Source: Ignavibacteria bacterium
GTDB lineage: Bacteria > Bacteroidota > Ignavibacteria > Ignavibacteriales > Melioribacteraceae
DNA length: 40,324 nucleotides
Direction of reading: 5' to 3'
Assembly (NCBI GenBank): GCA_012719345.1
Contig: JAAYAN010000217.1
Coordinates: 1 to 40,324, forward strand
The position numbers and the translations under genes are program-made. The notes below the pieces were generated by a model. That model was not told the DNA's origin. It did no database searches and saw nothing but the letters and a program-made list of their open reading frames with translations. Shown in pieces: positions 13,255 through 31,299 of the stretch (position 1 is its first letter; each line of letters starts with the position of its first letter).

Positions 13255-14415
13255 ATGTTTAAGAAAGTTTTTGTAACATCTTTATGTTTTTTGTTTCTGC
13301 TATTGAATAGCATAGGTCTAAAAGGTCAGCCGCCAACAGGACCAATGGTGGTTTCACCTAAAATTAACACTGATAAAACCGTAACTTTCAGTTATTTAGC
13401 TCCAAAAGCTAAGGAAGTTATGTTGAGCGGACAGTTCGAAAAAAAACCGGTCTCGATGAAAAAGGATTCAATTGGAATTTGGAGCGTAACAGTCGGACCA
13501 ATTGAACCGGATATTTATCCATATAATTTTATTGTCGATGGCTTATCAGTTATGGATCCGGCAAATGTTGATTACTTCCCGAATGAACGGTTTAAAGGAA
13601 GTCTGCTGGATGTTCCCGGTGATACTCCTCTCATTCATTCTATGCAGGATGTGCCTCACGGAAAAATAACATATGAGTATTATCCCTCGGTAAAAGGGAC
13701 AACCGGTTCGTTAGTTGTATATACTCCGCCCGGTTACGAAAAAAATCCTTCGAAAAAATATCCTGTATTCTATCTTATCAGCGGAACTACTGATACAGAA
13801 GAAGATTGGTATAAAGTCGGACGAACAAATTTTATAATGGATAATCTCATTGCTCAAGGCAAAGCTGTGCCTATGATAATAGTAATGCCTTACGGAAATA
13901 TTGAAGCGCGGATTGCCGAGCAGACAGGCGGAGCAAAACCAGAAGATCCTTCTGGAAGAGAAAATAAGGAAGCAGTTACCAGAGCATTGAATTTTTCTGA
14001 GGATATGATAAATAATATAATTCCTTACATTGAAAAAAATTATAACGTTATCAGCGATAAAAACAGCCGGGCAATCGGCGGCTTTTCGCGCGGCGGCGGA
14101 CAAACGCTTAGAACCGCTTTCGGCAATATGGATAAATTTGGCTCAATCTGCTGTTTCAGCGCATATTTATCAACTCAGGAAATGGAAGCGCAATATAAAA
14201 ATGTTGTTGATAATCCTGAAAAAACCAACAAAGACTTAAAATTATTGTGGATAAGCGTCGGAAATGAAGATTTCCTTTACAAACAAACCGAGGAGTTTAT
14301 GGGTTATCTGAAAGGGAAAAATATAAACTATAAAAGTCTTGTAACTACAGGCGGACATACCTGGATGAATACTAAGAAGTTTCTTAACGCTTCAGTTCAA
14401 TTGCTGTTTAAATAA
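13255..14415 (+). CDS. CE1-like esterase with N-terminal E-set domain (copy 2, altered oxyanion motif)
   Basis: A 386-residue paralogue of the 10401 gene. Signal peptide to about residue 24, E-set module about 32-125, then the alpha/beta hydrolase. The nucleophile is S278 in GGFSRGGG, the acid D339 in VGNEDF, the base H368 in TGGHTWM. The usual His-Gly of the oxyanion strand is Ser-Gly here (YLISGTTD, S176). Compared with the other copies it also carries an extra loop of about 20-25 residues (EARIAEQTGGAKPEDPSGRE, about 217-236) near the active site. The triad is intact, so it should be active, perhaps on another ester. A 146-base gap separates it from the GH43 gene, room for an internal promoter; copy 3 follows after 11 bases. 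Confidence 0.9.
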   Translation: MFKKVFVTSLCFLFLLLNSIGLKGQPPTGPMVVSPKINTDKTVTFSYLAPKAKEVMLSGQFEKKPVSMKKDSIGIWSVTVGPIEPDIYPYNFIVDGLSVMDPANVDYFPNERFKGSLLDVPGDTPLIHSMQDVPHGKITYEYYPSVKGTTGSLVVYTPPGYEKNPSKKYPVFYLISGTTDTEEDWYKVGRTNFIMDNLIAQGKAVPMIIVMPYGNIEARIAEQTGGAKPEDPSGRENKEAVTRALNFSEDMINNIIPYIEKNYNVISDKNSRAIGGFSRGGGQTLRTAFGNMDKFGSICCFSAYLSTQEMEAQYKNVVDNPEKTNKDLKLLWISVGNEDFLYKQTEEFMGYLKGKNINYKSLVTTGGHTWMNTKKFLNASVQLLFK

Positions 14416-14426
14416 AGGATATCGAT

Positions 14427-15506
14427 ATGAGAAAACTATTTTTTATTCAAATAATTATTTTTTTAGCCGGGATTAATTATGCACAAAGAGCACCTCTTTT
14501 AAATTCTCCCGAAGTACATAAAGATAAAAGTGTTACGTTCAGATTCTTTTCGAAAAAGGCTGAAAGTATTAATTTGGAAGCGGAATTCTTAACTTCTCCA
14601 AAATCAATGATAAAGGACTCAACCGGAGTTTGGAGCATTACGGTTGACCCGATTAAACCTGATATTTATCCGTATTTTTTTGTTGTTGACGGAATTCAGG
14701 TTGCCGACCCGAACAACACTTATATTTTTGCCAACGAAAGATTTAAAAGAAGCATTGTCGAAATTCCGGGAGATGAACCATTAATTCACGAATTGCAGGA
14801 TGTCCCTCACGGAAAAGTTACATATTGCTATTACAAATCTTCAACTTTAGGAAGAACCCGCAGACTGTTAGTTTATACTCCTCCGGGATTCGATGTTTTT
14901 GACAGCAATACAAAATATCCGGTTCTATATTTAATACATGGAGGTTCAGATACAGAAGAAACTTGGACAAAAGTTGGAAAGGCTAATTTAATTGCGGATA
15001 ACCTGATTGCCCAAAAAAAAGCAAAACCAATGATAATAGTTATGCCTTACGGAAATGTTTTCCCGGGTCAGTGGGATAGCTTTACAAAGGATGTTGTAAA
15101 TGATGTAATACCGTTTATCGAATCAAATTTTCCGGTTTACACCGATAGCAAAAACCGCGCGGTTGCAGGATTTTCCGTCGGCGGCGGACAAACTTTGAAT
15201 ATCGGATTCACAAATTTGGAAAAATTCTCGTGTATCTGCTCGTATGCACCTTATACAGCAACTCCCGAATTCAAAAAGAATTTTACAAATTGGTTGCCCG
15301 ATGCTGAAAAGATAAATAAACAATTAAAATTATTTACAATAAGCGTTGGAACAGAAGATTTCCTGTATGAAAGCGTAAAATCTAATATTGCAATGTTCGA
15401 AGAAAAAAATATTAACATTAAACCTTTTATAGTTCCAGGCGGTCATACATGGATGAATTGCAAGTTGTTTTTAGCAACTTCACTTCCGCAATTATTTACT
15501 GAATAA
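14427..15506 (+). CDS. CE1-like esterase with N-terminal E-set domain (copy 3)
   Basis: A 359-residue third paralogue, signal peptide to about INYAQ (residue 20). E-set module about 24-118, then hydrolase with the standard YLIHGG oxyanion motif (H171, G172), nucleophile S250 in AGFSVGGG, acid D311 in VGTEDF and H340 in PGGHTWM. It lies 11 bases after copy 2, the signature of a tandem duplication within one transcript. The residue after the nucleophile differs in all three copies (G, R, V), which may mark different leaving groups. Feruloyl or acetyl esterase on xylan is the likely role; exact substrate unknown. Confidence 0.9.
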   Translation: MRKLFFIQIIIFLAGINYAQRAPLLNSPEVHKDKSVTFRFFSKKAESINLEAEFLTSPKSMIKDSTGVWSITVDPIKPDIYPYFFVVDGIQVADPNNTYIFANERFKRSIVEIPGDEPLIHELQDVPHGKVTYCYYKSSTLGRTRRLLVYTPPGFDVFDSNTKYPVLYLIHGGSDTEETWTKVGKANLIADNLIAQKKAKPMIIVMPYGNVFPGQWDSFTKDVVNDVIPFIESNFPVYTDSKNRAVAGFSVGGGQTLNIGFTNLEKFSCICSYAPYTATPEFKKNFTNWLPDAEKINKQLKLFTISVGTEDFLYESVKSNIAMFEEKNINIKPFIVPGGHTWMNCKLFLATSLPQLFTE

Positions 15507-15551
15507 ATAATTAAATTATTAAAAATTAAACCATTTTAAGGAAGAACAATA

Positions 15552-18194
15552 ATGATTAGCAAAAATATACAAAAGTGCAGTGAAAATAACTTGCGGGCGG
15601 AACAAAGGTTTACTAGTCGAAAAACAAGCAGAATATCATTACAAATTATTTTTATTTTGTTTATAGTTACAAACAGCATTTTCAGTCAATTATTAAAAAT
15701 AAATGAACAGGAATATTTTGAAACAACCGGTGTTAATGTTCTTGTGTTTCATAATCAATATAACGGGATGTTTTTTGATGAAAAAACCGCTGGAATTGAA
15801 CTTATCCATCACGGAGTAAGAACATCTACCGGAGGCGCAATTAGACTTCAAAACACGCCTGAACAATGGGATTTGGTTCCTGCCGTTGTAGAAAGAAAAG
15901 TTGATGCAAAAAACAATAGTATAGAGGTTGTTTTACGCTACGAAGAATTGGATTTTAACTCGCGGGTTATAGTTTCTTCAAAAGATAAAGGCGTTTTAAT
16001 AAGCGTTTATCTCGATAAACCTGTACCGGAAAAGCTTGCAGGTCATGCCGGATTGAATATGGAATTTTTACCAGCATCTTATTTCGAAAAAACATTTATG
16101 GCTGATGGAGTTCCAGGAAATTTACCAAGATACCCTGCAGGAAATTCTATAATTGAGAGCGGAAGTAAAAAAATCGCACAGTTTGCAGGACATTCTACTT
16201 TTGATGATAGAGGCAGAAACGAATTTATTATTCCTAAGCCATTAGCTGAAGGAAAAACTATTATACTTGCTCCGGAAGATCCTGAAAAATTGGTGAAAAT
16301 TGAATCATTGGATTCAAAACTGATGCTGTTTGATGGAAGAATGTTAGCTCAAAACGGCTGGTTTATTGTTCGCAGTCTTCTGCCGGCAAACAAAACCGGA
16401 AAAGTATTAGAATGGTATCTTGAGCCAAATTCAGTTCCAAATTGGGTAAGACAACCGAATATTGGATTTTCCCAAGTTGGTTATATGCCTGATCAGCAGA
16501 AAATAGCTGTAATTGAACTTGATAAAAACGATAAACCTCTGAAAACCGCAAAAATATTTCAAATAATGCCTGACGGAAAAGCAGTAGAAAAATTCACCGG
16601 CAATATTGAAGTCTGGGGAAAATACCTCCGTTATAATTATGTTAAATTCGATTTCAGTTCTGTTAAAGAACAAGGTCTTTATTTTATAGAATACGGAAAC
16701 AATAAAACTAATACATTTACCATAAAACCTGATGTTTATGCAGATGTATGGCATCCTACAATGGACGTTTGGTTTCCTGTACAGATGGATCATATGACTG
16801 TTAATGAAGCTTACCGTATTTGGCATGGTGCTCCATATTTGGATGATTGTCTTCAAGCTCCGTTAAATCATATTCATTATGACGGATATGAAATGGGCGA
16901 TACAACCGATACAAAATACAAACCGCTTGAACGTATTCCTAATATGGCTGTAGGCGGCTGGTTTGACGCCGGTGATTTTGATATTCAAACAGGTTCGCAT
17001 AACGGAGTTGTTTCAACTTTTGTTGATGCCTGGGAAAATTTCAAAATTGAAAGAGATCAGACTTATATAGATCAAAAAACAAAATATGTTGATATCCACA
17101 GACCTGACGGAAAACCTGATTTATTACAGCAAATTGAACATGGTACTTTAAATTTAGTAGCTCAATGCGAAAACATCGGGCATCCTGTTCAGGGAATTAT
17201 TGTTCCTAATTTGCATCAATACCACCACCTTGGCGATGCCAGCACCGAAACAGATAATTTACCATATAACCCTAATTTGAAACCTTACGAATCGGATGGT
17301 TTATCAAGCGGAACTTTAGATGACAGATGGGCATTTACAACACGCAGACCGTTTATGGATTATGAAACTGCAGCTACATTAGCGCAGGCATACCGCGCAT
17401 TAAAAGGTTATAATGATGATCTCGCAGATAGAGCACTTAAAAGCGCCATCAGATTAGTTCAAGAAGCTGATGAATTAATGAAAAAACCCCAGAAAGGCGA
17501 AGATTGGATGAGAATGTGGGGCTGGGGTGCAGATATTAATGCGCTATTACAATTATACATCACAACAAAGGAGCAAAAATATGCAGATAAATTTCTTGAA
17601 AAAATATGGTCGACAATAGAACCTCCCAAAATGAACAGCAGAGGTTTTGATTCATCATTTCTTATAGGAAGAGGTCTTAAAACTGCTATTATTGCTATCC
17701 CTTATATGAATGCTGACTACAAAGAAAAACTTAAAGGATATGTGATAAAATATAAAGATGGTATAAAAGAGTTGGAAAAGAAAAATCCTTACGGTATGCC
17801 AATTTCAACAGGCGGATGGGGCGGCAGCGGCAGCATAGTAAATTCGGCAATTGCTAATTATTATGCATACAAAGCTTATCCCGAAATAATGAGTAAAGAA
17901 GATGTTTTAATGGGATTAAATTATATTTTCGGATGTCATCCGTATTCAAACGTATCATTTGTAAACGCTGTTGGAACAAAATCTAAAAAAGTTGCATACG
18001 GAAATAACCGCGCAGATTTTACAACAATTGCCGGAGGAATTGTACCGGGAATATTAGTACTTAAACCTGATTTCCCTGAAAACAAAGATGACTGGCCTTT
18101 CCTTTGGGGTGAAAACGAAGTTACAATAGGCGGAAGCGCTGATTATATTTTTCTTGTAAACGCAGTATTGGATATAACTAAAAATGATAAGTAA
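15552..18194 (+). CDS. GH9 glycosidase (endoglucanase type) with N-terminal sandwich and Ig-like domains
   Basis: An 880-residue protein. The N-terminus has a long basic stretch (about 29 residues) before the hydrophobic export segment, ending near IFSQ (residue 46). Residues about 48-295 form a beta-sandwich seen in other Bacteroidota GH9 proteins. Residues about 296-390 are the cellulase N-terminal Ig-like domain (GFSQVGYMPDQQKIAVI). The (alpha/alpha)6 catalytic domain covers about 395-875. Catalytic Asp residues are in GGWFDAGDFD (D472, D475) and the acid is E856 in WGENEVTIG, with the conserved His in FGCHPYSNVSF. Family activity is on beta-1,4-glucan, glucomannan or xyloglucan. In a xylan locus it may act on mixed-linkage glucan or exposed cellulose; this is inference. 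Confidence 0.92.
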   Translation: MISKNIQKCSENNLRAEQRFTSRKTSRISLQIIFILFIVTNSIFSQLLKINEQEYFETTGVNVLVFHNQYNGMFFDEKTAGIELIHHGVRTSTGGAIRLQNTPEQWDLVPAVVERKVDAKNNSIEVVLRYEELDFNSRVIVSSKDKGVLISVYLDKPVPEKLAGHAGLNMEFLPASYFEKTFMADGVPGNLPRYPAGNSIIESGSKKIAQFAGHSTFDDRGRNEFIIPKPLAEGKTIILAPEDPEKLVKIESLDSKLMLFDGRMLAQNGWFIVRSLLPANKTGKVLEWYLEPNSVPNWVRQPNIGFSQVGYMPDQQKIAVIELDKNDKPLKTAKIFQIMPDGKAVEKFTGNIEVWGKYLRYNYVKFDFSSVKEQGLYFIEYGNNKTNTFTIKPDVYADVWHPTMDVWFPVQMDHMTVNEAYRIWHGAPYLDDCLQAPLNHIHYDGYEMGDTTDTKYKPLERIPNMAVGGWFDAGDFDIQTGSHNGVVSTFVDAWENFKIERDQTYIDQKTKYVDIHRPDGKPDLLQQIEHGTLNLVAQCENIGHPVQGIIVPNLHQYHHLGDASTETDNLPYNPNLKPYESDGLSSGTLDDRWAFTTRRPFMDYETAATLAQAYRALKGYNDDLADRALKSAIRLVQEADELMKKPQKGEDWMRMWGWGADINALLQLYITTKEQKYADKFLEKIWSTIEPPKMNSRGFDSSFLIGRGLKTAIIAIPYMNADYKEKLKGYVIKYKDGIKELEKKNPYGMPISTGGWGGSGSIVNSAIANYYAYKAYPEIMSKEDVLMGLNYIFGCHPYSNVSFVNAVGTKSKKVAYGNNRADFTTIAGGIVPGILVLKPDFPENKDDWPFLWGENEVTIGGSADYIFLVNAVLDITKNDK

Positions 18195-18294: not shown

Positions 18295-18385
18295 TGTTTA
18301 TTTGATAGATTTATATAAAAAATAATGATGTTAATATTATTTGTCAGAAAGATTTCAAGTTTTCTTAATAAAATACGGTACTAAA

Positions 18386-19300
18386 ATGAAACTCTTTTTC
18401 TCATTTATTTCTTTGTTTTTTGTGCTAACCAGTTATGGTCAGGAATTTTCGAATAGTTGGAAAGATGTGAACTATGCCGGAGACACAAACACCTATCATA
18501 ATCTGGATATTTACCTGCCTAAAACCCAAAAAAAATCTTATCCGGTTATAATTTCTATTTACGGAAGCGCCTGGATGGCTAATAATATGAAAGGGTCTGA
18601 CTTAAAAGTTCTTGGGAAACCTTTATTGGATGCCGGTTTTGCAGTTGTAACTCCTAATCACAGATCCAGCAAGGACGCATTATTCCCAGCACAAATACAC
18701 GATATTAAAGCTGTAATCAGATACTTGCGCGCTAATGCAGCAAAGTATCAAATTGATACTTCATTTATCGGAATAACCGGAAGTTCTTCAGGCGGGAATA
18801 TGGCGGCAATGGCAGGAACTACCAGATTTGTAAAAGAACAAACACTTGAAGAAGTAACTGTTGATATTGAAGGCAGCCTCGGAAATTTTACAAATTACAG
18901 CAGTTCTGTTGATGCAGTTGTTGATTGGTTTGGCCCTACAAATATGCTTGTAATGGATTCCTGCGGAGGAACCGTTTTTACACATAATGCAGCTGACTCA
19001 CCCGCCTCTCTGTATATCGGCGGTCCGATTCAAGAACACAAAGCCAAATGTTTGCTGGCAAGTCCTACAACATATATCGATAAAAATGATCCGCCTTTTC
19101 TGATTTTCCATGGTGATAAAGATAATGTTGTACCATTTTGCCAAAGTGAATTACTATATAAAGAACTTAAAGAAAATGGCGTTCAGTGTGAATTTCACTT
19201 AGTCCCCGAAGGTCAGCACGGACCGGTTGTTCAAACTGAAAAATACTTAAATATGATGGTAGATTTTTTCAACAAAGAATTACAGAAAAAGAAGGAGTAG
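18386..19300 (+). CDS. Secreted alpha/beta hydrolase, acetyl-esterase (BD-FAE/lipase-like) type
   Basis: ATG 18386 gives 304 residues with a clean signal peptide (MKLFFSFISLFFVLTSYGQ). An upstream in-frame TTG at 18341 would put 15 residues in front of it and is not preferred. The nucleophile is S134 in GITGSSSGGN, the acid D246 in FHGDKDNVVPF, the base H278 in EGQHGP. The usual HGGxW oxyanion loop reads YGSAWM here. Family members remove acetyl or other small acyl groups from carbohydrates. It comes after a 190-base gap with a long hairpin and is followed three bases later by another esterase gene, so the two are translated together. Confidence 0.85.
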   Translation: MKLFFSFISLFFVLTSYGQEFSNSWKDVNYAGDTNTYHNLDIYLPKTQKKSYPVIISIYGSAWMANNMKGSDLKVLGKPLLDAGFAVVTPNHRSSKDALFPAQIHDIKAVIRYLRANAAKYQIDTSFIGITGSSSGGNMAAMAGTTRFVKEQTLEEVTVDIEGSLGNFTNYSSSVDAVVDWFGPTNMLVMDSCGGTVFTHNAADSPASLYIGGPIQEHKAKCLLASPTTYIDKNDPPFLIFHGDKDNVVPFCQSELLYKELKENGVQCEFHLVPEGQHGPVVQTEKYLNMMVDFFNKELQKKKE

Positions 19301-19303
19301 AAA

Positions 19304-20203
19304 ATGACTAAAATATCAGCATTACTATCGTTATTGGTTTTTACATTATTCTTGAATGCACAAGAAGTAATAAATCTTTATCCGGGTGAAATTCCAAATT
19401 CAATTGAAATTAACCGCGCAGACCCTGCTTTTGAAAGAGGGATGTATTCAAAAGTAACAAAACCGACATTAGAAATTTTCAAACCTGATAACGGAAAATC
19501 GAATGGGACAGCAATTGTTATTTGTCCCGGAGGAGGTTACAGCGTTGTTGTTTACGAGGCTGAAGGTAAAAAAACCGCTGAGGAATTTGCAAAAAACGGA
19601 ATAACTGTATTTTTACTTAAATACAGAATTCCAAATGATTCAACGATGAAAGATAAAAAAACAGGACCTTTGCAGGATGTTCAGCAGGCATTTAGATTTG
19701 TGCGGGAAAATGCTGCAAAATGGGGAATTGACCCGAATAAGGTTGGAATAATGGGCTTTTCAGCTGGCGGACATTTGGCATCAACAGCGGCTACTCATTT
19801 TGAAAAACCAGTAATTGAAAATGCCGGAAATGTAAATTTACGTCCCGATTTCCAAATTTTAATTTATCCTGTAATCAGTATGCAGGGAAAACTTACACAC
19901 GCAGATTCAAGAAAAGCTTTGCTGGGAATCAGCCCGACAATGGATGTTGTTGATTTGTTCTCAAACGAATTACAGGTAAACGCAAAAACTCCTCCGGCAT
20001 ATATAACACACGCTGCCGACGACTTTGTTGTGGATGTTGAAAATAGTGTAAAATATTTTAGCGCGTTAAAGAAAAACAAAATCCCGGCAGAGATGCATAT
20101 TTATCCCAAAGGAAATCACGGTTTTGTATTGCGCAACCCAACCGAAGTATGGACAAAACCCATAATCGACTGGCTGAAAGGTATGAATTTCTTAAATAAA
20201 TGA
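19304..20203 (+). CDS. Secreted acetylxylan-esterase-like alpha/beta hydrolase
   Basis: A 299-residue protein, signal peptide to about FLNAQ (residue 20). Oxyanion loop CPGGGYSVVVY (about 74-84), nucleophile S153 in GFSAGGH, acid D240 in THAADDFVV, base H272 in GNHGFV. This pattern is that of the alpha/beta hydrolases commonly annotated as acetylxylan esterases next to xylanases. It would deacetylate xylo-oligosaccharides, probably in the periplasm. Its ribosome site (GGAG) overlaps the end of the previous gene, three bases away. The next gap is 85 bases. Confidence 0.87.
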   Translation: MTKISALLSLLVFTLFLNAQEVINLYPGEIPNSIEINRADPAFERGMYSKVTKPTLEIFKPDNGKSNGTAIVICPGGGYSVVVYEAEGKKTAEEFAKNGITVFLLKYRIPNDSTMKDKKTGPLQDVQQAFRFVRENAAKWGIDPNKVGIMGFSAGGHLASTAATHFEKPVIENAGNVNLRPDFQILIYPVISMQGKLTHADSRKALLGISPTMDVVDLFSNELQVNAKTPPAYITHAADDFVVDVENSVKYFSALKKNKIPAEMHIYPKGNHGFVLRNPTEVWTKPIIDWLKGMNFLNK

Positions 20204-20288: not shown

Positions 20289-21215
20289 ATGCAAAAGTTT
20301 AAGATGTATTCAATTTCGGCTCTTTCTTTAATTTTGTTTGTTTTTTTAAGCGGATTTCAATTGTTCAGTAATACTAACGAAGCAGGTAATAGTGAAATAA
20401 ATTCAAGAGTTGTTGAAGATGGCGGAACAGGAATTTATAAAGCTGTTATGGTTACAGATTCAACATTAAAAACTCATACCGTTTTCAGACCGCAGGATTT
20501 AAGCAAATTCAACAGTAATAACAAACTCCCCATTATTGCCTGGGGTAACGGCGCCTGCGCAAACTCTCCCTGGGAGCACATAAACTTTTTATCGGAAGTT
20601 GCATCGCACGGTTTTCTTGTTGTTGCAATCGGTCCAATGCCTGAAGAAGGCGTTCGCGGCGGCGGAAGAAGTGAATCGGCACAAATGATTGATGCAATTA
20701 ATTGGGCAATCGCTCAAAACAATGATAAATCGAGCCAGTATTATAATAAAATTGATATAACAAAAATTGCAGTCAGCGGAATGTCCTGCGGAGGATTGCA
20801 AACATTAGAAGTTGCTCCCGATCCGCGTATTTCCACAGTTATGGTTTGCAACAGCGGAATTCTTCCAACACCCGGGGCCGGAATGCCGGGAATGCCTGGA
20901 CTTACAAAAGATCATTTGGCAAAATTGCATTCTCCTGTAATTTATATACTTGGCGGAGAAACTGATATTGCATACAATAACGGAATGGACGATTTCAGCA
21001 AAATAAACAACCTGCCTGTCTGCGCAACAAATCTAAATGTCGGTCACGGCGGAACTTACAGCCAGCCCCACGGAGGCGATTTTGCAATTGTAGCTTCTGC
21101 CTGGTTTAAATGGCAGCTTAAGGATGACCAAACTGCAAAGAAAATGTTTATCGGAGAAAATTGCGGCGTATCCCAAATGCCCGGCTGGAGAATTGAGAAA
21201 AAGAATATTGATTAA
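20289..21215 (+). CDS. Secreted alpha/beta hydrolase, dienelactone-hydrolase/PETase-like branch
   Basis: A 308-residue protein with a signal segment at about residues 8-27. The fold is recognised from PIIAWGNGACANSPWEH (about 81-97, taking the place of the oxyanion loop), nucleophile S166 in SGMSCGGLQ, acid D226 in GGETDIAY and His 253 in NVGHGGTY. Related proteins occur beside hemicellulases in bacteria and fungi without a settled substrate. There is a glycine-rich segment (PGAGMPGMPGL, about 195-205). It sits among esterase genes and before the unclassified helical-barrel protein, so a decoration-removing esterase is the best guess. It is only distantly similar to the two preceding hydrolases. 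Confidence 0.75.
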   Translation: MQKFKMYSISALSLILFVFLSGFQLFSNTNEAGNSEINSRVVEDGGTGIYKAVMVTDSTLKTHTVFRPQDLSKFNSNNKLPIIAWGNGACANSPWEHINFLSEVASHGFLVVAIGPMPEEGVRGGGRSESAQMIDAINWAIAQNNDKSSQYYNKIDITKIAVSGMSCGGLQTLEVAPDPRISTVMVCNSGILPTPGAGMPGMPGLTKDHLAKLHSPVIYILGGETDIAYNNGMDDFSKINNLPVCATNLNVGHGGTYSQPHGGDFAIVASAWFKWQLKDDQTAKKMFIGENCGVSQMPGWRIEKKNID

Positions 21216-21274: not shown

Positions 21275-23488
21275 ATGAAGAAAAAGTACTATTTCCTTAT
21301 ATATTTATTTCTGTTTTCATTTTCGTTTGCTCAGCATCCAAATTCTGTTGAATTAAAAAGCGGTGATTTAACTTTATCATTTATTCCAAAATCAAATGAT
21401 AAATGGAGCGTTCAGATTTCAAACGATAAAAATTTGAAAATAACGCAGAACATTGCTGCTATCATAGAAATTTGTAAAAATGAAAACGAAATTATCAGTC
21501 TTACTTCCGAATATAAAAATGTTGAAAAGTCGGGAGTAGTCGTTAAGGCAAACGCAGAAATAACTTACGATAAAAATGTAATTTTTAACATTAACGATAA
21601 ATGGGAAATTAGTAACGGAATTGTGTTGTTCGCTCGAAATATTTCAGTTAAAGGAAATTCTTCGGACGGATTTAATTCTTCCATTTCATTTGCAATTGAT
21701 AAATCAGTTAAATGGGAAGATATACAATGTATGCTGCCCGGCGCTTTATATGGCGACCCTACTTACAATGGCGACCGTTCGCCCGGCGGAACAATGAATT
21801 ATGCTGCAAAAAGAATTATTTTCCGCGAAGATATGCTTGCCGCTCCCCTGCTCGCTCTCTCTTTGCCAAACGGGTTATCTGTTTCAATGATTAATCCTGA
21901 ACCAAACGGAGAATCGACCGTCGAGGAAACAAGTCTTAAAAAAGATATATTGATTGATTCACAAATCAAATTCGGATCCTTGAATTATTGGCAAACTCCA
22001 AATAATCCGGTTGAATTTGGTTTTAAATATCCGGGAACAATGACTTTTTATCCTTTCGGTCCAAATGCATCAAATAATCCACGCTGGGTAAGAAGGTTTC
22101 ATCCGATAAATGAAAATGTTTCTCACAGTTACAGAATTAATTTAAGATTCGGCAAAAACGAATCTTTTCAGGAAGTAATAAAAAACTCCTGGAGATGGAC
22201 TTGGAGCACTCTTTCTCCGGCAGAAACCAAAATTGATGTTGAACAAATGCGCCAGGTTTTGATTGATCATCTTGCTTCGCAGGCATCAACAATTGACGGA
22301 CGTTCAGGTATTCCTTTTGCGGTTGCAACTTTCGATACAACCGAGCTTCAATGGAACAGGAATATGACTGCAATGGGATTTGTAAGTAAAAATCTTGAAG
22401 CCGCAAATCAATTGCTTATAGAAGGAGATCGTGATAAATCAGAACGCGGTAAAAAAATGCGTTCACTTGGATTATCAATAATATCTTCAATGATAAATGC
22501 GCTTTCCAAAATTCCTATTGAAGCAACAGGCTATGATCTTGCAACAGGAAAAATATGGACGGGCAATAATCAGGAATGGTTAGCGCCCTGGTTAAGAAAT
22601 GCAACCGAAGATATGCGTGTTTTAATGTGGGCTTATACGCGCGAGCCTGAAAAAGGAAGAACCCAGCGTGAATGGTTAAACTGGGTGAGAACTTATGCCG
22701 ATTGGCTTCTATTTCAACAGCGTAAAGACGGCTCATTCCCGCGAAGATGGGAATCCGGGACAAATAAAGTTGCTGAAGAAACAGGTTCTACAAGTTACTG
22801 CCCGATTCCGCTTCTTGTTCAGTTAGGAAATGAAACAGGAGATAAAAGATATTTGAATTCCGCTCTTAAAGCCGGAGAATATATCTGGGAAAATTGGGGA
22901 AAGAAAACTCTATTTGCAGGCGGAACAAGCGACAACCCGAACATTACCGATAAAGAAGCCGGGATGTTAAGTATGGAAGCTTATTTGAGCCTTTACGAAG
23001 CTACTCAGGATTCCAAATGGCTTGAAAGAGCAAAAGCAGCTGCGGATTTTACCGAAACCTGGATTTGGATATGGAACGTTCCGATGCCGGTTGATGCAGA
23101 TGATAAAGATCTTCATTGGAAAAAAGGAGTGCCTACAGTCGGATTGCAGGGTATAAATGCAAGAGGACCGGGCGGTGTTGACGAGTATCTCGATTGGTCA
23201 GCACCATCTTATGCCAAACTTTACAAATATACAAATGACGAGCATTATCTTGATGTAGCGCGAATACTTCTTCATAACACAAAAGCAATGGTTGCAATGC
23301 CTGGAAGATTATATGATATGAAAGGTCCGGGCTGGCAGCAGGAACATTGGAATCTTGGTCCCGGAAGATCGGGACGAGGAAGAGGCGGACACAGATTCTG
23401 GCTGCCGTGGATTTCTGTAAATCATTTGCATAGCATTACCGGTTTGGAATTGCTGGATAAAGAATTATATCAGAAGTTGATAAAATGA
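21275..23488 (+). CDS. Secreted protein with beta-sandwich plus (alpha/alpha)6-like toroid, no family recognised
   Basis: A 737-residue protein, signal peptide to about FSFAQ (residue 20). Residues about 22-300 look like a beta-sandwich. Residues about 320-735 consist of amphipathic helices rich in Trp and Arg, with repeating layout (WLNWVRTYADWLL, YLNSALKAGEYIWENW, WLERAKAAADFTETWIW, YLDVARILLHNTKAM), as in (alpha/alpha)6 glycosidases and lyases. Possible active-site residues include D/E in NATEDMR, SGTNKVAEETGS and PGGVDEYLDWS; none is assigned. Sandwich-plus-toroid is the layout of several glycosidase and polysaccharide-lyase families, but I cannot name one. The locus otherwise lacks a glucuronidase, so this is a candidate for that or another missing step. 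It is 59 bases after the hydrolase and 112 before the GH3 pair. Confidence 0.75.
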   Translation: MKKKYYFLIYLFLFSFSFAQHPNSVELKSGDLTLSFIPKSNDKWSVQISNDKNLKITQNIAAIIEICKNENEIISLTSEYKNVEKSGVVVKANAEITYDKNVIFNINDKWEISNGIVLFARNISVKGNSSDGFNSSISFAIDKSVKWEDIQCMLPGALYGDPTYNGDRSPGGTMNYAAKRIIFREDMLAAPLLALSLPNGLSVSMINPEPNGESTVEETSLKKDILIDSQIKFGSLNYWQTPNNPVEFGFKYPGTMTFYPFGPNASNNPRWVRRFHPINENVSHSYRINLRFGKNESFQEVIKNSWRWTWSTLSPAETKIDVEQMRQVLIDHLASQASTIDGRSGIPFAVATFDTTELQWNRNMTAMGFVSKNLEAANQLLIEGDRDKSERGKKMRSLGLSIISSMINALSKIPIEATGYDLATGKIWTGNNQEWLAPWLRNATEDMRVLMWAYTREPEKGRTQREWLNWVRTYADWLLFQQRKDGSFPRRWESGTNKVAEETGSTSYCPIPLLVQLGNETGDKRYLNSALKAGEYIWENWGKKTLFAGGTSDNPNITDKEAGMLSMEAYLSLYEATQDSKWLERAKAAADFTETWIWIWNVPMPVDADDKDLHWKKGVPTVGLQGINARGPGGVDEYLDWSAPSYAKLYKYTNDEHYLDVARILLHNTKAMVAMPGRLYDMKGPGWQQEHWNLGPGRSGRGRGGHRFWLPWISVNHLHSITGLELLDKELYQKLIK

Positions 23489-23600: not shown

Positions 23601-26600
23601 ATGAAAAAAAAGATTGTATCTTCAAGTTTAATAATCGGCTGTATGTTTTTAATTACAGCATTCTTCCCAAGCAGCAAAAACGCCAAGCTGCCTATTTATC
23701 TTAATACTTCATATTCATTTCAGGAAAGAGCTGCGGATCTTGTTTCGAGAATGACGCTTGAGGAAAAACAAAGTCAGCTTGGTAATACAATGCCTCCTAT
23801 TCCCCGTTTGGGTGTTCGCTCTTACGATGTTTGGGGAGAAGCTTTACACGGAATTCAAGGAAGAAATAACAACAGCGGAATGACTGCAACATCATTCCCA
23901 AACAGTGTAGCTGCCGGCGCAACTTGGGATCCTGATCTTATTCAAAGAGAAACTTCTGTAATTGCCGATGAAGCCAGAGGTTTTAATCACGATGTAATTT
24001 TTACTTTAACTTATTGGTCGCCGGTAGTTGAACCGACACGCGACCCCAGATGGGGAAGAACCGCTGAAACATTCGGTGAAGATCCTTTTCTTGTAAAAAA
24101 AATAAGCAGTGCATTTGTAAAAGGTCTTATGGGAGATGATCCTAAGTATCTTAAAACTGTTCCCTGCGGAAAGCATTTTATTGCAAATAATACGGAGTTT
24201 AACCGTCATACCGGAAGTTCTGATCTTGAAGAAAGAGATATGCGCGAATATTATCTCACACCTTACAGAGAATTAATCAGGAATGATAAACTGCCTTCGA
24301 TTATGACAGCTTATAATGCAATAAACGGAATACCTGTTTCAGCAAATAAATTGCTTGTTGATACAATTGCACGCAAAACTTACGGGTTGGACGGATATGT
24401 AACAGGCGATTGCGGCGCAATTTCGGATATGATAAGCGGACATAAATTTGTAAAAACCAACGAAGAAGCAGCTGCACTTGGACTTAAAACCGGCGTTGAT
24501 TCCGATTGCGGCAGCGTTTATCAGGCAAGTGCAATAAAAGCTTTACAGCAAGGATTGATAACCGAAAGCGACATTGATAAAGCCTTAATAAACATTTTTA
24601 CAATTAGAATGAGGATGGGAGAATTTGACCCTGCAAACATAGTTCCATATTCAGGAATCAAACCAAGTGTTATCAACGATCCTTCGCATAATGATTTAGC
24701 ATTGGAAGTTGCTACAAAAGCCCCGGTACTTTTAAAAAATATAAATGCAGCAAATAAAAATTATAAATCCCTTCCGTTAAACTTTAAGAACATTAAGAAA
24801 ATTGCAGTTTTAGGTCCGTTTGCAGACAAAGTTGAATTAGGCGATTATTCAGGAGAAGTAGAACCCGAACTTAAAGTATCGCCTTTAAAAGGAATTCAAA
24901 ATTATATTAAAGAACATAATCTTGATATCGAAGTTGTATCAAGCTCAGGCGGAAATACCGAAAAGAGGAATGATTTCTACACACTTATGGGATTTTCTAC
25001 TGTTGAAAAAAACGGCTCAGCAAAAGAATACAACGCCACAAAATATGATAATTCTGCAAGCGGACTTATAGCTTCCGAAAGATTTGGTCAGCTTTCGTTA
25101 AGAGGAATTAAAGACGGCGATTGGATTGCTTTTAACGGTATCGATATAACAAATCTTGATTCGATAAAGTTTAATATTAATGTTGCCGTAAGCGGCGGAG
25201 CAATTGAAGTGAGAGTCGGTTCTGTTACCGGTAATATTATTGCATCGCAAAAAGTTATCAGCACTCAAACAGGCGGCAATCGCTTTTTCGGAAACAGGGT
25301 AACTGTTCCTGCAAAAGTTAATAATTTGGGTATTTCCGGACCGCAGAGTCTTTTTATAGTTTTCCGCGAACCTGAATCTCCTGCAACTGATAAAAATACG
25401 CTCGATATGGCTTCTTCTGCCGATGTTGCATTCTTGTTTTTAGGAACCGATCAAAATACCGGCAGAGAAGAATCAGACAGATTTTCGTTGAAATTACCAG
25501 GAAATCAAGAAGAATTGATTGAAGCAATTGCCAAAGTAAACAAGAATACCATTGTAGTTATTCAGGCTATGGGTATGGTTGAAGTTGAACAATTCAAAAA
25601 TAACAGCAATATTCCCGGAATAATTTGGACAGGTTACAACGGGCAAGCTCAAGGAACTGCAATTGCGAAAATCCTTTTCGGAGAAGTAAACCCAGGCGGC
25701 AAACTGAATATAACCTGGTATAAAACTGTAAACGATTTACCAGATTTTAATGATTATACACTCAGAAGCGGAAACGGTAAAAACGGAAGAACATACTGGT
25801 ATTTCAACAAAGATGTTTCTTATGAATTCGGTTTCGGATTATCATATACAACTTTTGCTTACAGAAATTTTTCGATAAACAAGAAAAATATTACCCCGAA
25901 TGAATTTGTTACTATTACCACCGATGTTGAAAACACTGGCAATGTTGACGGCGATGAAATTGTGCAGATTTATGTTAAAACCCCTGACAGCAATCCTTCT
26001 TTACAACGTCCGGTTAAGAGATTAAAAGGCTTCAAACGGGTAACAATACCTGCCGGACAAACAAAAAGAGTTTCAATAGATGTAGATTGTTCCGATTTGT
26101 GGTTCTGGGATTCTGAAAACAATAAAATCACATTCGACCAGGGTAAATACATTTTTGAAATCGGTGCTTCATCAAAAGATATTAAAGGAACTGTTGAAGC
26201 ACAAATGAGCGGAAAATATGTTTCTGTTCTGCAAACTGTAACAGCCGAATGCGGGAAATTTGTTTTTAAACCCGGGAACACTGCTCAAACAAGTGTTACT
26301 GCAGCTTTATCTGACGATAGTTTTATAAACCTCAACGATACAAAGGTTGAATATAAAAGCAATAATAATTCAGTTGCAACCGTTGATGAAAAAGGAAAAA
26401 TTACAATTAAAGGCGTTGGCGCAGCATCCATTTTTGCTTACGTAACTTATAACGGGAAAACTGTCAGTTCATCTTTCCCGGTTAAAGTTCTTCCTGATTT
26501 AACTCCGAAAGATTTGATTGTAAACGGAAAGAAAATGCAAGGATTTAACCCGTCAATTAAAGCATACAGCTATTTATTGAAAGATTTAAAAACAATTCCC

Positions 26601-27425
26601 GAAGTAAAATCTTCGAATATCGGAGAAGACATAACTGTCGATATAGTTCAAGCTAAGAAAATTCCCGGAACGGCGGTAATAAATTTTATCGACAACATTA
26701 CGCTTGAAAAAAATACTTATTATGTAAATTTTGATATGAAATCTATTAGCGATGAATTTAACTCAGCTACTTTAGGCAGCCAGTGGGAATGGTTAAGAGA
26801 AAATTCAAAAAATCATTCGTTTGGAAATGGAACCTTTAATATTGTGAGCGAAAAAGGTGATGTATCGGAAAATACAAATAATGCAAAAAACATTTTGCTG
26901 CAAAGCGCCAACAATAACTGGGTAATCGAAACCAAACTTTTCAGTTCTAGAATTCCATCTCAGCCTGAGAATTCAGGAATTATTGCTTACGAAAATGATA
27001 ATTATTTCGTAAAACTTATGTATCGCGCAGTAATCAAAACTACCCGTTTCGGCGGAGGTAATGCTCCTCAGATTCGTCCTGGAACAGTTGATTTGATTAT
27101 GGAAGAAAACGGCATAACAAAATCGGCGGCTTCATTCGATTTAAAAACTGAAATTACAAAAGATAAACCTTTAATCCTTAAACTTGAAAAAAATGGCAGC
27201 AGTTACACTGCTTATTATTCATTGGATGGAACAAAGTTCGAAAAATTAGGCACTGCTGATATACTTTTAAAAGATATTAAAGCGGGTTTAATTGTTTGTG
27301 ACGGTATTATAACTCAGAATATGAAAAGTACATTCTGGTTCGATTCCGATACAACAAAACCGGAAACACCTTTTGAAGTATATTTTGATTATTTCAGAAT
27401 TGAGAACAGCGGTAACGAACTGTAA
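23601..27425 (+). CDS. Giant multidomain GH3 glycosidase (beta-xylosidase/glucosidase type), copy 1
   Basis: A 1274-residue protein; GH3 enzymes are usually 750-870. Signal peptide about 1-27. GH3 N-terminal barrel about 30-340, with nucleophile D270 in YVTGDCGAISD. The C-terminal alpha/beta sandwich (about 385-750) is interrupted by a CBM6-like jelly roll (about 455-590). Then fibronectin-type domain (about 760-870), Big2-like Ig domain (about 875-970), cadherin-like strand domain (about 975-1045) and a concanavalin-like C-terminus (about 1050-1270). WGEALHG, the KHFIANN block and SDLEERDMREYYLTPY are typical of xylan 1,4-beta-xylosidases of GH3. It would act on xylo-oligomers, probably cell-associated. 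Copy 2 follows after 43 bases with the same domain order. Confidence 0.93.
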   Translation: MKKKIVSSSLIIGCMFLITAFFPSSKNAKLPIYLNTSYSFQERAADLVSRMTLEEKQSQLGNTMPPIPRLGVRSYDVWGEALHGIQGRNNNSGMTATSFPNSVAAGATWDPDLIQRETSVIADEARGFNHDVIFTLTYWSPVVEPTRDPRWGRTAETFGEDPFLVKKISSAFVKGLMGDDPKYLKTVPCGKHFIANNTEFNRHTGSSDLEERDMREYYLTPYRELIRNDKLPSIMTAYNAINGIPVSANKLLVDTIARKTYGLDGYVTGDCGAISDMISGHKFVKTNEEAAALGLKTGVDSDCGSVYQASAIKALQQGLITESDIDKALINIFTIRMRMGEFDPANIVPYSGIKPSVINDPSHNDLALEVATKAPVLLKNINAANKNYKSLPLNFKNIKKIAVLGPFADKVELGDYSGEVEPELKVSPLKGIQNYIKEHNLDIEVVSSSGGNTEKRNDFYTLMGFSTVEKNGSAKEYNATKYDNSASGLIASERFGQLSLRGIKDGDWIAFNGIDITNLDSIKFNINVAVSGGAIEVRVGSVTGNIIASQKVISTQTGGNRFFGNRVTVPAKVNNLGISGPQSLFIVFREPESPATDKNTLDMASSADVAFLFLGTDQNTGREESDRFSLKLPGNQEELIEAIAKVNKNTIVVIQAMGMVEVEQFKNNSNIPGIIWTGYNGQAQGTAIAKILFGEVNPGGKLNITWYKTVNDLPDFNDYTLRSGNGKNGRTYWYFNKDVSYEFGFGLSYTTFAYRNFSINKKNITPNEFVTITTDVENTGNVDGDEIVQIYVKTPDSNPSLQRPVKRLKGFKRVTIPAGQTKRVSIDVDCSDLWFWDSENNKITFDQGKYIFEIGASSKDIKGTVEAQMSGKYVSVLQTVTAECGKFVFKPGNTAQTSVTAALSDDSFINLNDTKVEYKSNNNSVATVDEKGKITIKGVGAASIFAYVTYNGKTVSSSFPVKVLPDLTPKDLIVNGKKMQGFNPSIKAYSYLLKDLKTIPEVKSSNIGEDITVDIVQAKKIPGTAVINFIDNITLEKNTYYVNFDMKSISDEFNSATLGSQWEWLRENSKNHSFGNGTFNIVSEKGDVSENTNNAKNILLQSANNNWVIETKLFSSRIPSQPENSGIIAYENDNYFVKLMYRAVIKTTRFGGGNAPQIRPGTVDLIMEENGITKSAASFDLKTEITKDKPLILKLEKNGSSYTAYYSLDGTKFEKLGTADILLKDIKAGLIVCDGIITQNMKSTFWFDSDTTKPETPFEVYFDYFRIENSGNEL

Positions 27426-27468
27426 GAATATGAATTATTTGAAATTATAAATCAGGAAATAGAATTAA

Positions 27469-30400
27469 ATGAAATCAGCCAAAATATTAACTCTTGTACT
27501 ATGCGGAATATTTTTAACGGGATTTTTTCCGAAAAGTGAAAATGCGAAAATCCCGATATATTTAAACACTTCATATTCTTTTAAGGAAAGAGCCGCTGAT
27601 CTTGTTTCGAGATTAACGCTCGAGGAAAAACAAAGTCTTATTGGGAACAGTATGGCTGCTGTTCCCCGTTTAGGTATTAAACCATTTAATGTTTGGGGAG
27701 AAGCTCTACACGGAGTTATGGGCGGTTTCGGAATGAACCGGAACGAAGGTTCGCCTACTTCATTTCCGAACAGTGTTGCACTTGGCTCTTCCTGGGATCC
27801 TGATTTGATGCAAAGAGAAAGCAGCGCTATTTCTGATGAAGCGCGAGCTTTAAACTCTCCTGTTATTACCGGATTAACTTATTGGTCGCCTGTTGTTGAG
27901 CCTATCCGCGACCCGCGCTGGGGAAGAACAGGTGAATCTTACAGTGAAGATCCGTTTCTTGTTTCGCAAATTGCCGCCGGTTTTGTTAAAGGAATGATGG
28001 GAAACGATGACATTTATTTGAAGACTGTCCCTTGCGGAAAACACTATTTTGCTAACAACAGTGAGTTCGACCGCCACGTAAGCAGCTCGAATATGGACAG
28101 CCGGGATATGAGAGAATTTTACCTTCAACCATACAAAAAGTTAATTGAAGAAGATAATCTTCCTTCAATTATGTCGTCATATAATGCAGTTAACGGCGTG
28201 CCTACTTCGGCAAGCAAATTTTATCTTGATACACTCGCACGCAGAACTTACGGTCTTGACGGATATATTACAGGAGATTGCGCTGCAATTGAGGATATTT
28301 ATACAGGTCACTATTTTGTTAAAACTCCAGAAGAAGCAACAGCCGCCGGACTTAAAGCAGGCGTTGATATCGACTGCGGAAGCGTTTATCAAAAAAGCGC
28401 AATTGATGCTTTGAAAAAAGGACTTCTTACAATCGACGATATCGACAAAGCTTTGTTGAATATTTTTACAATCAGGATGAGATTAGGCGAATTCGATCCG
28501 CAGGAAAAGTCACCTTATTCACTTTATCAAAAAAGTATTATAGGGTCTGCTGCAAATAAACTTTTAGCAAAAGAGATTGCCACAAAAACCCCTGTCTTGT
28601 TGAAAAATGAAACTTCTGCAAAATCTGAAAAAAAGATTTTGCCGTTAAATCCTTCTAATCTTAATAAAATAGCTTTAATAGGACCTCAGTCGGATGATGT
28701 TGAATTGGGACCGTATTCCGGCAGACCTTCAAAAGAAAATTTAATTTCTCCGTTGAAAGGAATAACAAAATATCTTTCAGAAAGAAAATACAAAACTGAA
28801 ATTGTTCATTCATCCGGCGGAAACACATCAAACAAGAGCAATTTGTTTTATATCGCAGATTTTTCACTGCAAAAATCAAGCGGAGCATTAACGAAATTTG
28901 ATGCTACCAAGTTCAGTTCTGCCGCAAACGGAATAACAATCGGTTCAGGAATGGGTGAAGAAAATCAGGTAAGAACAATAAACGACGGCTCCTGGACGGC
29001 TTATAATAATGTTGATCTGACAGATGTTGACACAATTGTTATCAATCTTAATATACCTACTGAAGGCGGACTTGTTGAGGTAAGAACCGGCTCGCCGGAA
29101 GGAAATCTACTTACAATATTAGATGCTTCAGTAGCTTCCGGAGCAAAAGCCGGCGGAGTTTACGGAACCGGAACTAAAATGAAAGCCAAAATTAATAAAT
29201 TAGGATATAACGAACCGCAAACTCTCTATCTGGTTTATAAAGCTCCCGAAAATAAGGGAATTGACGAAGCAACAATTGATATGGCAAAAAATTCGGATGT
29301 TGCAATTATTTTTGTAGGAACAGATGAAAAAACCGCAACAGAAGAAGCCGACAGACTTACACTTTTATTGCCGGGGAATCAGGTAGAACTGATTAAGGCT
29401 GTTGCTGCGGTTAATCCAAACACTGTTGTTGTTATGCAGACTCTCGGCTGCGTTGAAGTTGAAGAATTTAAAAATCTTAAAAATATTCCGGGAATTATCT
29501 GGACAGGTTATAACGGTCAGGCTCAAGGTGATGCGATTGCCTCCATTCTTTTCGGCGATGCAAATCCCGGTGGAAAACTTAACGGCACATGGTACAAATC
29601 TGTAAAAGATTTACCTGAAATTACTGATTACACATTGAGGGGCGGAAAAGGAAAAAACGGGCGCACTTTCTGGTATTTTGATAAAGAGGTATCCTATGAA
29701 TTCGGATACGGCTTATCTTATACTACTTTTGAATATTCAAACTTCAGGATAAGTAAGAATTCAATTACGCCGAATGATAAAATTACAATAAGCACTTATG
29801 TAAAAAATACAGGCGGATATGATGGAGATGAAGTAGTTCAGATTTATATGACAACACCCGAAAGTCCTGCAGAACTGCAAAGACCGATAAAAAGATTGAA
29901 AGGATTTAAACGTGTTACCATACCTGCGGGTCAAACTAAAAAAGTTGATATTGAAATAAATTGCGCCGACCTTTGGTTTTGGGATATGGGAAAAGATAAA
30001 ATGACCTTTGATCAGGGAAAATATGTTTTTGAAATCGGAAGTTCGTCAAAAAATATTAAAGGAAAAGTTTCAGCAACAATGAGCGGTAAATTTATCCCTG
30101 AGTTAAAAACTGTTGTAGCAGATTGCGGTAAAATAGTTTTTAAAAAAGGAGCCGGTTCGCAAATATCTTTAACAGCCGCAATGACTGACGACAGCTTTTA
30201 TGATATTTCTAAAGCGTCTGTAACCTATTCAAATAATAATCCTGATGTTGCAGAAGCAGATAAAAACGGATTTGTTAAAGCAAAAGAAACCGGAGTAGCA
30301 ACTATTACTGCTAATGTTACAATTAACGGCAAAACAGTTTCAGGCAGTTTCCCGGTAAAAGTATTGCCGGAAATAAGTTTGTCAAAAATTACTGTCGGCG

Positions 30401-31299
30401 GTAAAAACATACCAGATTTTGATACAAAGAAATTCAGCTACAGCTACCTCTTCCCTTCTACGGTTAGAAATATTCCTAAAGTTGAAGCCTCAGCATCGGA
30501 TAAAGATATTATTGTTGATATTAAACAGGCAGAAAAAATTCCCGGGACGACAGTAATTACTTTAACTGATAAAATTTCTCTTGAACGGAAAACATACCTA
30601 ATCAATTTCGGTTATAATTCGGTTAATGATGAGTTTGATTCAAATAATCTAAACAGCCAATGGAATTGGATTAGAGAAAATAAAGGAAATTGGAGTTTAA
30701 GTAAAAATCAAGGAAATCTTACAATTTCAGTGAAAGACGGAGGATTAAAAGAAACCAGCAATAACGCTGAAAACCTAATCTTACAAAACGCAAATTCGGA
30801 CTGGACAGTTGAAACAAAAATTAAATTTTCCCGAATACCATCCGGTTTATCGCAGCATTCCGGCGTAATTGCATATCAGGATGATGATAATTACTTGATG
30901 CTCGTTTACGGTGCAGGGGCAAGATTAAGAGGTCCGGCAGGTAATCAAAGCGGTTCAGTCTATTTAATTTCCGAAGAAAACGGGAATATGAAAACTATTG
31001 AGACAATTAATTTGGATGCAGATTTCTTAAAAAATAACATAATTTATTTCAAGATGGAAAAAGTTGGAGAAACCTACTCTGCTTCATATTCCTCAGATAA
31101 TAAAAACTTTAAAAATGCAGGAAGCACGAAAATTTTGTTAAAGAATTTAAATGCCGGAATAATCGCCTGCGAAGGAATTCCTGATCCGCGGATGGCGTTT
31201 TTTATGAATATGAGAAACGAAGGGAAAAAGGAAACTGCCGAAAGTCCGTTAGAAGTTTCAGTTGATTATTTCCATATTAACAACAGTGGAATTAAATGA
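27469..31299 (+). CDS. Giant multidomain GH3 glycosidase, copy 2
   Basis: A 1276-residue tandem paralogue of the gene upstream with the same order: signal peptide, GH3 barrel (nucleophile D270 in YITGDCAAIED), alpha/beta sandwich with an inserted CBM6-like jelly roll, fibronectin-type, Big2-like, cadherin-like and concanavalin-like domains. Differences cluster around the active site: GDCGAIS became GDCAAIE, and the loop after WGEALHG is GVMGGFGMNRNEGS instead of GIQGRNNNSGM, so the two may prefer different chain lengths or sugars. The last four bases (ATGA) overlap the start of the next gene, so the propeller protein is translationally coupled to it. Both copies lack a T9SS sorting domain. 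Confidence 0.93.
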   Translation: MKSAKILTLVLCGIFLTGFFPKSENAKIPIYLNTSYSFKERAADLVSRLTLEEKQSLIGNSMAAVPRLGIKPFNVWGEALHGVMGGFGMNRNEGSPTSFPNSVALGSSWDPDLMQRESSAISDEARALNSPVITGLTYWSPVVEPIRDPRWGRTGESYSEDPFLVSQIAAGFVKGMMGNDDIYLKTVPCGKHYFANNSEFDRHVSSSNMDSRDMREFYLQPYKKLIEEDNLPSIMSSYNAVNGVPTSASKFYLDTLARRTYGLDGYITGDCAAIEDIYTGHYFVKTPEEATAAGLKAGVDIDCGSVYQKSAIDALKKGLLTIDDIDKALLNIFTIRMRLGEFDPQEKSPYSLYQKSIIGSAANKLLAKEIATKTPVLLKNETSAKSEKKILPLNPSNLNKIALIGPQSDDVELGPYSGRPSKENLISPLKGITKYLSERKYKTEIVHSSGGNTSNKSNLFYIADFSLQKSSGALTKFDATKFSSAANGITIGSGMGEENQVRTINDGSWTAYNNVDLTDVDTIVINLNIPTEGGLVEVRTGSPEGNLLTILDASVASGAKAGGVYGTGTKMKAKINKLGYNEPQTLYLVYKAPENKGIDEATIDMAKNSDVAIIFVGTDEKTATEEADRLTLLLPGNQVELIKAVAAVNPNTVVVMQTLGCVEVEEFKNLKNIPGIIWTGYNGQAQGDAIASILFGDANPGGKLNGTWYKSVKDLPEITDYTLRGGKGKNGRTFWYFDKEVSYEFGYGLSYTTFEYSNFRISKNSITPNDKITISTYVKNTGGYDGDEVVQIYMTTPESPAELQRPIKRLKGFKRVTIPAGQTKKVDIEINCADLWFWDMGKDKMTFDQGKYVFEIGSSSKNIKGKVSATMSGKFIPELKTVVADCGKIVFKKGAGSQISLTAAMTDDSFYDISKASVTYSNNNPDVAEADKNGFVKAKETGVATITANVTINGKTVSGSFPVKVLPEISLSKITVGGKNIPDFDTKKFSYSYLFPSTVRNIPKVEASASDKDIIVDIKQAEKIPGTTVITLTDKISLERKTYLINFGYNSVNDEFDSNNLNSQWNWIRENKGNWSLSKNQGNLTISVKDGGLKETSNNAENLILQNANSDWTVETKIKFSRIPSGLSQHSGVIAYQDDDNYLMLVYGAGARLRGPAGNQSGSVYLISEENGNMKTIETINLDADFLKNNIIYFKMEKVGETYSASYSSDNKNFKNAGSTKILLKNLNAGIIACEGIPDPRMAFFMNMRNEGKKETAESPLEVSVDYFHINNSGIK

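Follow-up and report, generated by a model that had tools for sequence, protein, structure and literature searches.

What does the protein lodged between de-esterifying enzymes and a GH3 pair contribute to this xylan-degradation locus? The window, by which we mean the whole 40,324-nucleotide stretch of DNA analysed, carries at positions 21275-23488 of the plus strand the gene for a secreted sandwich-plus-toroid protein of 737 amino acids, here called P0001. The initial annotation had left it outside the known glycosidase and lyase families and had offered it as a candidate for an activity that the locus seemed to lack.

The gene and its surroundings

The open reading frame runs from ATG to stop with no internal stops, the opposite strand of 21275-23488 is broken by many stops, and the G+C content is 39%, compared with 36-41% in the neighbours. 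Relatives at 38-62% identity to P0001 make up 15 of the 16 other rows of the core alignment A2 (the remaining row, L036, stands at 25%), and we therefore take P0001 to be the product of a real coding gene. Its N-terminus, MKKKYYFLIYLFLFSFSFAQ, is an ordinary signal peptide as judged by eye from the sequence (residues 1-20, positions 21275-21334, plus strand). With an intact frame and this leader, the earlier description of a 737-residue secreted protein holds. P0001 is genuine and conserved, resembles a CAZyme and has no assignment in Pfam or NCBIfam.

Upstream, all on the plus strand, an arabinoxylan context (4148-18194) of a GH43, two arabinofuranosidase-domain proteins (ASD1, GH51-type), three PF00756 esterases, another GH43 and a GH9-like protein leads to two BD-FAE type esterases recognised by Pfam (18341-20203, ORFs from 18341 and 19304). 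These are followed by the immediate upstream neighbour, a PETase-like alpha/beta hydrolase (20289-21215; 33.0 bits in Pfam, cut-off 28). Downstream, on the same strand, lie the GH3 pair with Pfam matches to CBM6 and GH43_C2 (23601-31299, from 23601 and 27469) and a stretch (32329-39490) holding two GH43 proteins and a GH10 protein that bears a T9SS tail, interspersed with two small orphan genes. The order BD-FAE, BD-FAE, PETase-like, P0001, GH3, GH3 agrees with the position first given to P0001, between de-esterifying enzymes and the GH3 pair, and its proposed xylan-degradation surroundings are borne out. The Pfam scan took in the 22 ORFs that span 416-39490, short of three overlapping ones at 39747-40322. 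None of the 22 encodes a TonB receptor or SusD, and no GH95 turned up in the window.

Each GH3 enzyme (23601-27425 and 27469-31299) has its CBM6 match inside the stretch covered by the GH3 C-terminal domain and ends in a GH43_C2 ConA-like domain; the CBM6 match of the second enzyme is below the CBM6 cut-off. Three orphans of the window without a convincing Pfam family (31296-32258, 33582-34298 and 35952-36620) recur in loci of the P0001 family. The first has a counterpart in L051 (159.6 bits), the second in L050 (344.4 bits) and the third in both L007 (85.5 bits) and L049 (295.1 bits).

Family assignment, fold and candidate active site

P0001 has no NCBIfam match at E<=1, and none of 16 members of the wider superfamily has one at E<=0.01. 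Neither the Pfam GH95 catalytic and N-terminal models nor PF07488/PF15979 (GH67/GH115) match it at E<=0.1; the same library gives 574.4 bits to GH95 for a neighbour of the homologue in locus L007. PDB searches by sequence, with P0001 itself and with profiles A2 (E<=1) and A4 (E<=10), yielded weak or short local matches only, the best being a GH76 stretch of 76 positions (E 4e-9) obtained with the widest profile. The local profile matches to GH76, LanC and AGE proteins were rejected as assignments, being stretches of helical-hairpin repeat that define no family. No paper in the open-access literature searched was recognised as describing the P0001 family, though one may exist in print. The earlier statement that no known GH or PL family fits is thus borne out for NCBIfam and Pfam, and P0001 looks like a glycosidase-like enzyme of a type that these two libraries do not name.

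The sole Pfam match over its cut-off is to GH127 (PF07944, 27.9 bits against 24.9), and this model is matched at E<=0.01 by 10 of the 17 A2 members. In addition, the 3,6-anhydro-D-galactosidase 5opq, which we take to be a GH127 enzyme, is among the Foldseek matches of the full model described below. P0001 could accordingly be a divergent beta-L-arabinofuranosidase related to GH127/GH146, a reading that we regard as improbable. The PF07944 match spans just 26 residues, placing P0001 645-670 on model positions 183-208 of 376, and the domain order of P0001 is reversed relative to the full GH127 of L048, which itself lies in a homologue's locus. As set out in PMC10728902, GH127/GH146 enzymes hold zinc with three cysteines and one glutamate and use a cysteine nucleophile. 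The only cysteines of P0001 are at 67, 152 and 509, none of them at an invariant column, which rules out a Zn-Cys3 site of this kind. With so short a match and no cysteine site, we rejected the Pfam assignment to GH127.

The AlphaFold model of full-length P0001, built on an alignment of 10 sequences, has strands over residues 25-293 and then helices over 298-736 (pLDDT 73.6, pTM 0.80); a model of the toroid alone has pLDDT 72.9 and pTM 0.82. These models, with Foldseek and VIA, place on the plus strand an N-terminal beta-sandwich (residues 25-293, positions 21347-22153), a linker helix (298-313, 22166-22213) and an (alpha/alpha)6-type toroid (322-737, 22238-23485). In nearly all VIA matches listed, the helices are aligned with (alpha/alpha)-type proteins, with Z about 22-26. 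Behind its first match, a PL27 enzyme treated below, the Foldseek search with the full model lists cellobiose/chitobiose phosphorylases, PL26, a GH65 glucosidase, glucodextranase, E. coli GH63 and, as sandwich domains, YidC and Slr1438, among others. The beta-sandwich and (alpha/alpha)6-like domain originally described hold for the AlphaFold model, and VIA and Foldseek agree. The predicted fold is common among enzymes that act on carbohydrates and does not by itself identify the reaction.

Foldseek places the PL27 enzyme BACCELL_00875 (5no8/5nok) first with either model, at E 7.7e-10 for full-length P0001 and E 1.1e-4 for the isolated toroid. The domain order of this enzyme is that of P0001, an N-terminal sandwich and then an (alpha/alpha)6 domain, according to PMC8377490. 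P0001 might be a PL27-like lyase or a glucuronate dehydratase, acting by beta-elimination at a glucuronic acid side group and leaving an unsaturated uronic acid for GH88/GH105 enzymes. Such a reading is favoured by the finding that proteins once classed as GH154 proved to be dehydratases, as reported in PMC12269599. It is unlikely in our view, and is nonetheless the main rival to an exo-acting glycosidase. The structural fits are poor (TM by query 0.36 with rmsd 11.6 for the full model, 0.46 with 6.2 for the toroid), and PL27 is not among the 39 PDB sequences retrieved with profile A4 at E<=10, nor among those retrieved with A2 at E<=1. PL27 is likewise missing from the 50 VIA matches listed, which excludes nothing. 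The relatives in Bacteroides finegoldii and Segatella and one from a genome of our G series were considered as PL27 members and rejected, having no PL27 match in the PDB.

On the toroid, VIA returned GH76, AGE-type, unsaturated glucuronyl hydrolase, AprG and DsbH matches at Z 21.6-25.3. The near tie of AGE-type epimerases, GH76, unsaturated glucuronyl hydrolases, a DsbH protein and others (Z about 22-26) would allow P0001 to be an epimerase or isomerase, or a relative of the six-hairpin group that binds carbohydrate without catalysis. We hold this to be very improbable, as P0001 has a signal peptide and a sandwich domain, sits among hydrolases and carries an invariant Glu pair, while a His pair is not superfamily-wide. 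GH88/GH105 enzymes have a catalytic Asp pair, and AGE epimerases a His pair, at defined places; the likeness of P0001 to both is one of fold only, as given by VIA.

Conservation in the toroid centres on two glutamates that are the candidate catalytic residues. E561 (22955-22957, plus strand), which opens the modelled helix 560-577, is kept in 26 of 26 superfamily sequences, and E690 (23342-23344, plus strand), in the loop preceding helix 704-727, in 25 of 25, one sequence ending earlier. Identity in this 26-sequence set falls to 15-23%, and P155, W467, G486, A530, G623, G686 and G704 are also invariant in it; D485 is kept in 23 of 26. The R184-E185-D186 motif of the sandwich (21824-21832, plus strand) is present in 17 of 17 A2 sequences and, residue by residue, in 21/26, 20/25 and 21/25 of the superfamily set. 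No His pair is common to the whole superfamily in the 26-sequence alignment, and no neighbouring invariant Asp pair occurs in alignments A3 and A5. The His of 'GHSLVDHY' in L035 and of 'GHSLTDAY' in the Deinococcus relative gives way to Pro, Ala, Ser or Val in the core clade. E690 precedes the last long helix of the toroid, in a loop where inverting (alpha/alpha)6 enzymes such as GH15 have their base. Loops 601-635 and 670-707, the latter with E690, have pLDDT <50, so neither the closeness of E561 to E690 nor a conserved pocket is readable from the predicted model, and the pair could be structural instead of catalytic.

Relatives and their genomic company

A locus search confined to close relatives gave 9 loci from 18 pattern matches. 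Of 391 genomes drawn from the class, 6 (our own included) exceed 500 bits and 23 have a match at E<=0.001, and a draw of 97 nearer relatives gave a strong match in our own genome only, with 6 at E<=0.001. The phylum draw of 395 genomes gave 3 above 400 bits (own included) and 10 at E<=0.001; when 390 genomes were searched with a profile, 6 scored above 500 bits and 44 matched at E<=0.001. Class-draw and profile-search matches at or below 500 bits are mainly partial and fall on the toroid; L002, one weak match that was scanned, is a DsbH-type protein. A relative at 38% identity to P0001 is carried on a Deinococcus megaplasmid. In the tree, a core clade of 14 rows is united with support 99/99, the Deinococcus sequence and L035 are sister to it (16 rows, 98/98), and deeper joins depend on long branches. 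L012, which contains a run of unknown bases, is part of A1 and A2 and was omitted from A3, A5, the tree and the 26-sequence set, as were L022, L025-L032, L039, L040 and the short matches L002 and L004-L006 from the last of these; L020 is cut by a contig end. The wider sandwich-plus-toroid superfamily reaches at least five bacterial phyla. Relatives at 38-62% identity are scattered over several phyla yet rare within them, which suggests horizontal transfer.

Several relatives have features of their own. A Planctomycetota bin (L009, 4195-8805) holds a tandem gene pair, 47% and 56% identical to P0001, whose copies fall in separate subclades of the tree. L010, L011, L013 and L015 form a rumen Bacteroidales clade with lipobox-like, lipoprotein-like starts by eye, and L015 has an FMN-binding protein directly upstream and a CE15-like esterase downstream. 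The Deinococcus aetherius relative (L044, 13727-27963) lies inside an operon-like run of a DUF4432 epimerase-type protein, sugar ABC transporter genes, an FGGY kinase, an SDR, a PTE-type protein, a KDPG aldolase and a SIS protein; the run has the look of an oxidative pathway for breaking down an uncommon sugar. A related family of about 670 amino acids (L045 10870-12879, L046 11257-13290, L047 9473-11479), annotated as hypothetical and without a Pfam match at E<=0.01, adjoins GH43 in Segatella and B. finegoldii, GH88 in B. finegoldii and a TonB receptor in Segatella and Catenovulum. The superfamily members of B. finegoldii, Segatella, Catenovulum and Deinococcus all carry the annotation 'hypothetical'.

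Each of the 12 non-rumen core loci (11 genomes, the window included) has a GH or CE (esterase) neighbour, some of these neighbours being labelled by Pfam and many by phmmer against already labelled proteins only. The richest company is that of L007 in genome G214 (GH95, GH43-CBM6, GH97, SASA, GH31, two COesterases, GH54), of L017/L048/L049 (CE1-type, BD-FAE, GH127, GH43, GH97, GH39, COesterases) and of L020/L052/L053 (GH115, GH95, GH43-CBM6, Melibiase_2 and GH3, then COesterase, GH31, GH2, GH43 and GH9-like). Others have GH54, CE1-type and COesterase (L008), GH2 (L009), a CE1-type protein with malectin (L012), GH115 and GH2 on the other strand 3-9 kb off (L014), SASA and COesterase (L016/L051) or a GH2-like protein behind a PMT-type gene (L062). 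L018 (SASA) and L050 (SASA, GH43) are two loci of one genome. Several core loci thus hold a complex glucuronoarabinoxylan kit of GH95, GH97, GH31, GH54, GH115 and CE1. No GH neighbour was recognised in the four rumen loci, where Pfam scans took in five neighbours of L015 and one of L013, and the CE15-like esterase is found near L015 only. The sister group likewise shows no firm tie to xylan: L035 adjoins GH43, and beside the Deinococcus member no GH is annotated.

Families were searched for across whole genomes in G688 and in 7 of the 11 non-rumen core genomes. GH95 is over its cut-off in 7/7 core genomes (8/8 with G688), compared with 45/391 in the class, and it shares a contig with the P0001 homologue in three of the seven (G331:C99, G108:C66, G214:C11). 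The 6 class-draw core genomes above 500 bits all lie within the 26 that have GH95 above 500 bits (hypergeometric 5e-8), and among 34 GH115-bearing genomes they all fall within the 14 with strong GH95 (0.002), both values assuming identical genome draws, ignoring kinship and coming from tests chosen post hoc. GH115 is present in 6/6 strong core genomes, against 34/294. As the GH115 association is about as strong as that of GH95, much of the signal may reflect general xylan degradation.

The same genomes bear on beta-elimination, whose product would need a GH88-type enzyme. Such an enzyme is over its cut-off in 5/7 core genomes (6/8 genomes with G688), and a distant P0001 relative in B. finegoldii adjoins GH88. 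However, GH88 is under the cut-off of 26.6 in the other two, our own genome G000 (24.7 bits, with a stop) and G250 (21.0), and lies on the contig of the gene in none of the seven, several of these contigs being merely 4-12 kb. These absences weaken the case for a beta-elimination product.

The idea first attached to P0001, that it is an alpha-glucuronidase of a new family filling a GH67/GH115 gap, started from a xylan locus with neither family, and this is so for the 22 scanned ORFs of the window. It does not extend to the genome, which has GH115 (529.7 bits) and GH67 (494.2 bits, with the GH67 C-terminal domain too), both outside the window and each among xylan-type neighbours with GH43 at both; the GH67 stretch also has CE1-type, GH3, GH31 and GH97 genes. 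Across the seven core genomes GH115 is over its cut-off in six and GH67 in five, with one or both in 6/7; G706 (79% complete) has neither, nor does G688. In L014 and L052, moreover, GH115 and the homologue are found on one stretch, about 6 kb and about 12 kb apart respectively. With these enzymes in our own and most core genomes, and GH115 beside the homologue in two loci, P0001 fills no gap, and we would be very surprised to find it a new alpha-glucuronidase. It is probably not the missing enzyme that removes glucuronic acid. What endures of the initial annotation is a family without assignment in Pfam or NCBIfam and a xylan context, with the Glu pair of the toroid in its favour; the supply of a missing alpha-glucuronidase activity does not.

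Proposed function and known systems

The fold and domain order, the conservation of E561 and E690, the GH or CE neighbours in 12/12 core loci and the GH95 association lead us to propose, at about an even chance, that P0001 is an exo-acting glycosidase trimming the side chains of complex arabinoxylan. We propose a model where P0001 is exported from the cytoplasm and, as an exo-acting glycoside hydrolase of a family unnamed in Pfam and NCBIfam, would take a side-chain sugar off fragments of complex, esterified glucuronoarabinoxylan. Its partners would be esterases and arabinofuranosidases, joined in related genomes by GH95, GH97 and GH31 enzymes. E690, in the last inter-helix loop, may serve as general base and E561 as general acid in an inverting single displacement. 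According to PMC4491172, complex corn xylan or its sugars are substrates of GH95, GH97 and GH31 enzymes. The GH95 described there has a sandwich and an (alpha/alpha)6 domain and is inverting, with a Glu acid and without a carboxylate base, so that even this enzyme departs from a Glu/Glu pair.

It is tempting to go further and suggest that P0001 represents a new glycosidase (or lyase) family within a wider, uncharacterised sandwich-plus-toroid superfamily of at least five phyla, marked by E561/E690, P155, Y159 and the RED motif. Its core clade would cleave a side-chain linkage of complex glucuronoarabinoxylan that has no assigned enzyme family, a proposal to which we give somewhat less than an even chance. 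Beyond this locus, side-chain removal is a bottleneck for the microbial and industrial use of corn-bran type xylan, and the P0001 family, with its candidate catalytic pair and complex-xylan context, is a ready experimental target. A function for P0001 would also provide the first functional anchor for a superfamily of hypothetical proteins.

Compared with known systems, P0001 shares with GH76 alpha-1,6-mannanases and AGE epimerases the toroid fold and short local sequence matches. Unlike GH76, it lacks an invariant adjacent Asp pair (compare the inactive D136A/D137A PDB entry) and has an additional N-terminal sandwich. From the PL27 L-rhamnose-alpha-1,4-D-glucuronate lyase (BACCELL_00875, 5no8) it differs in sequence, with 10-13% identity in structural alignments, and in setting, arabinoxylan for P0001 and gum arabic for PL27. 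The GH95 alpha-L-galactosidase BACOVA_03438, as presented in PMC4491172, likewise joins a sandwich to an (alpha/alpha)6 domain and belongs to a complex xylan locus, whereas P0001 has no Pfam GH95 match, and in three genomes the homologue shares its contig with a true GH95. The larger core loci resemble the corn xylan tool set outlined in PMC4491172.
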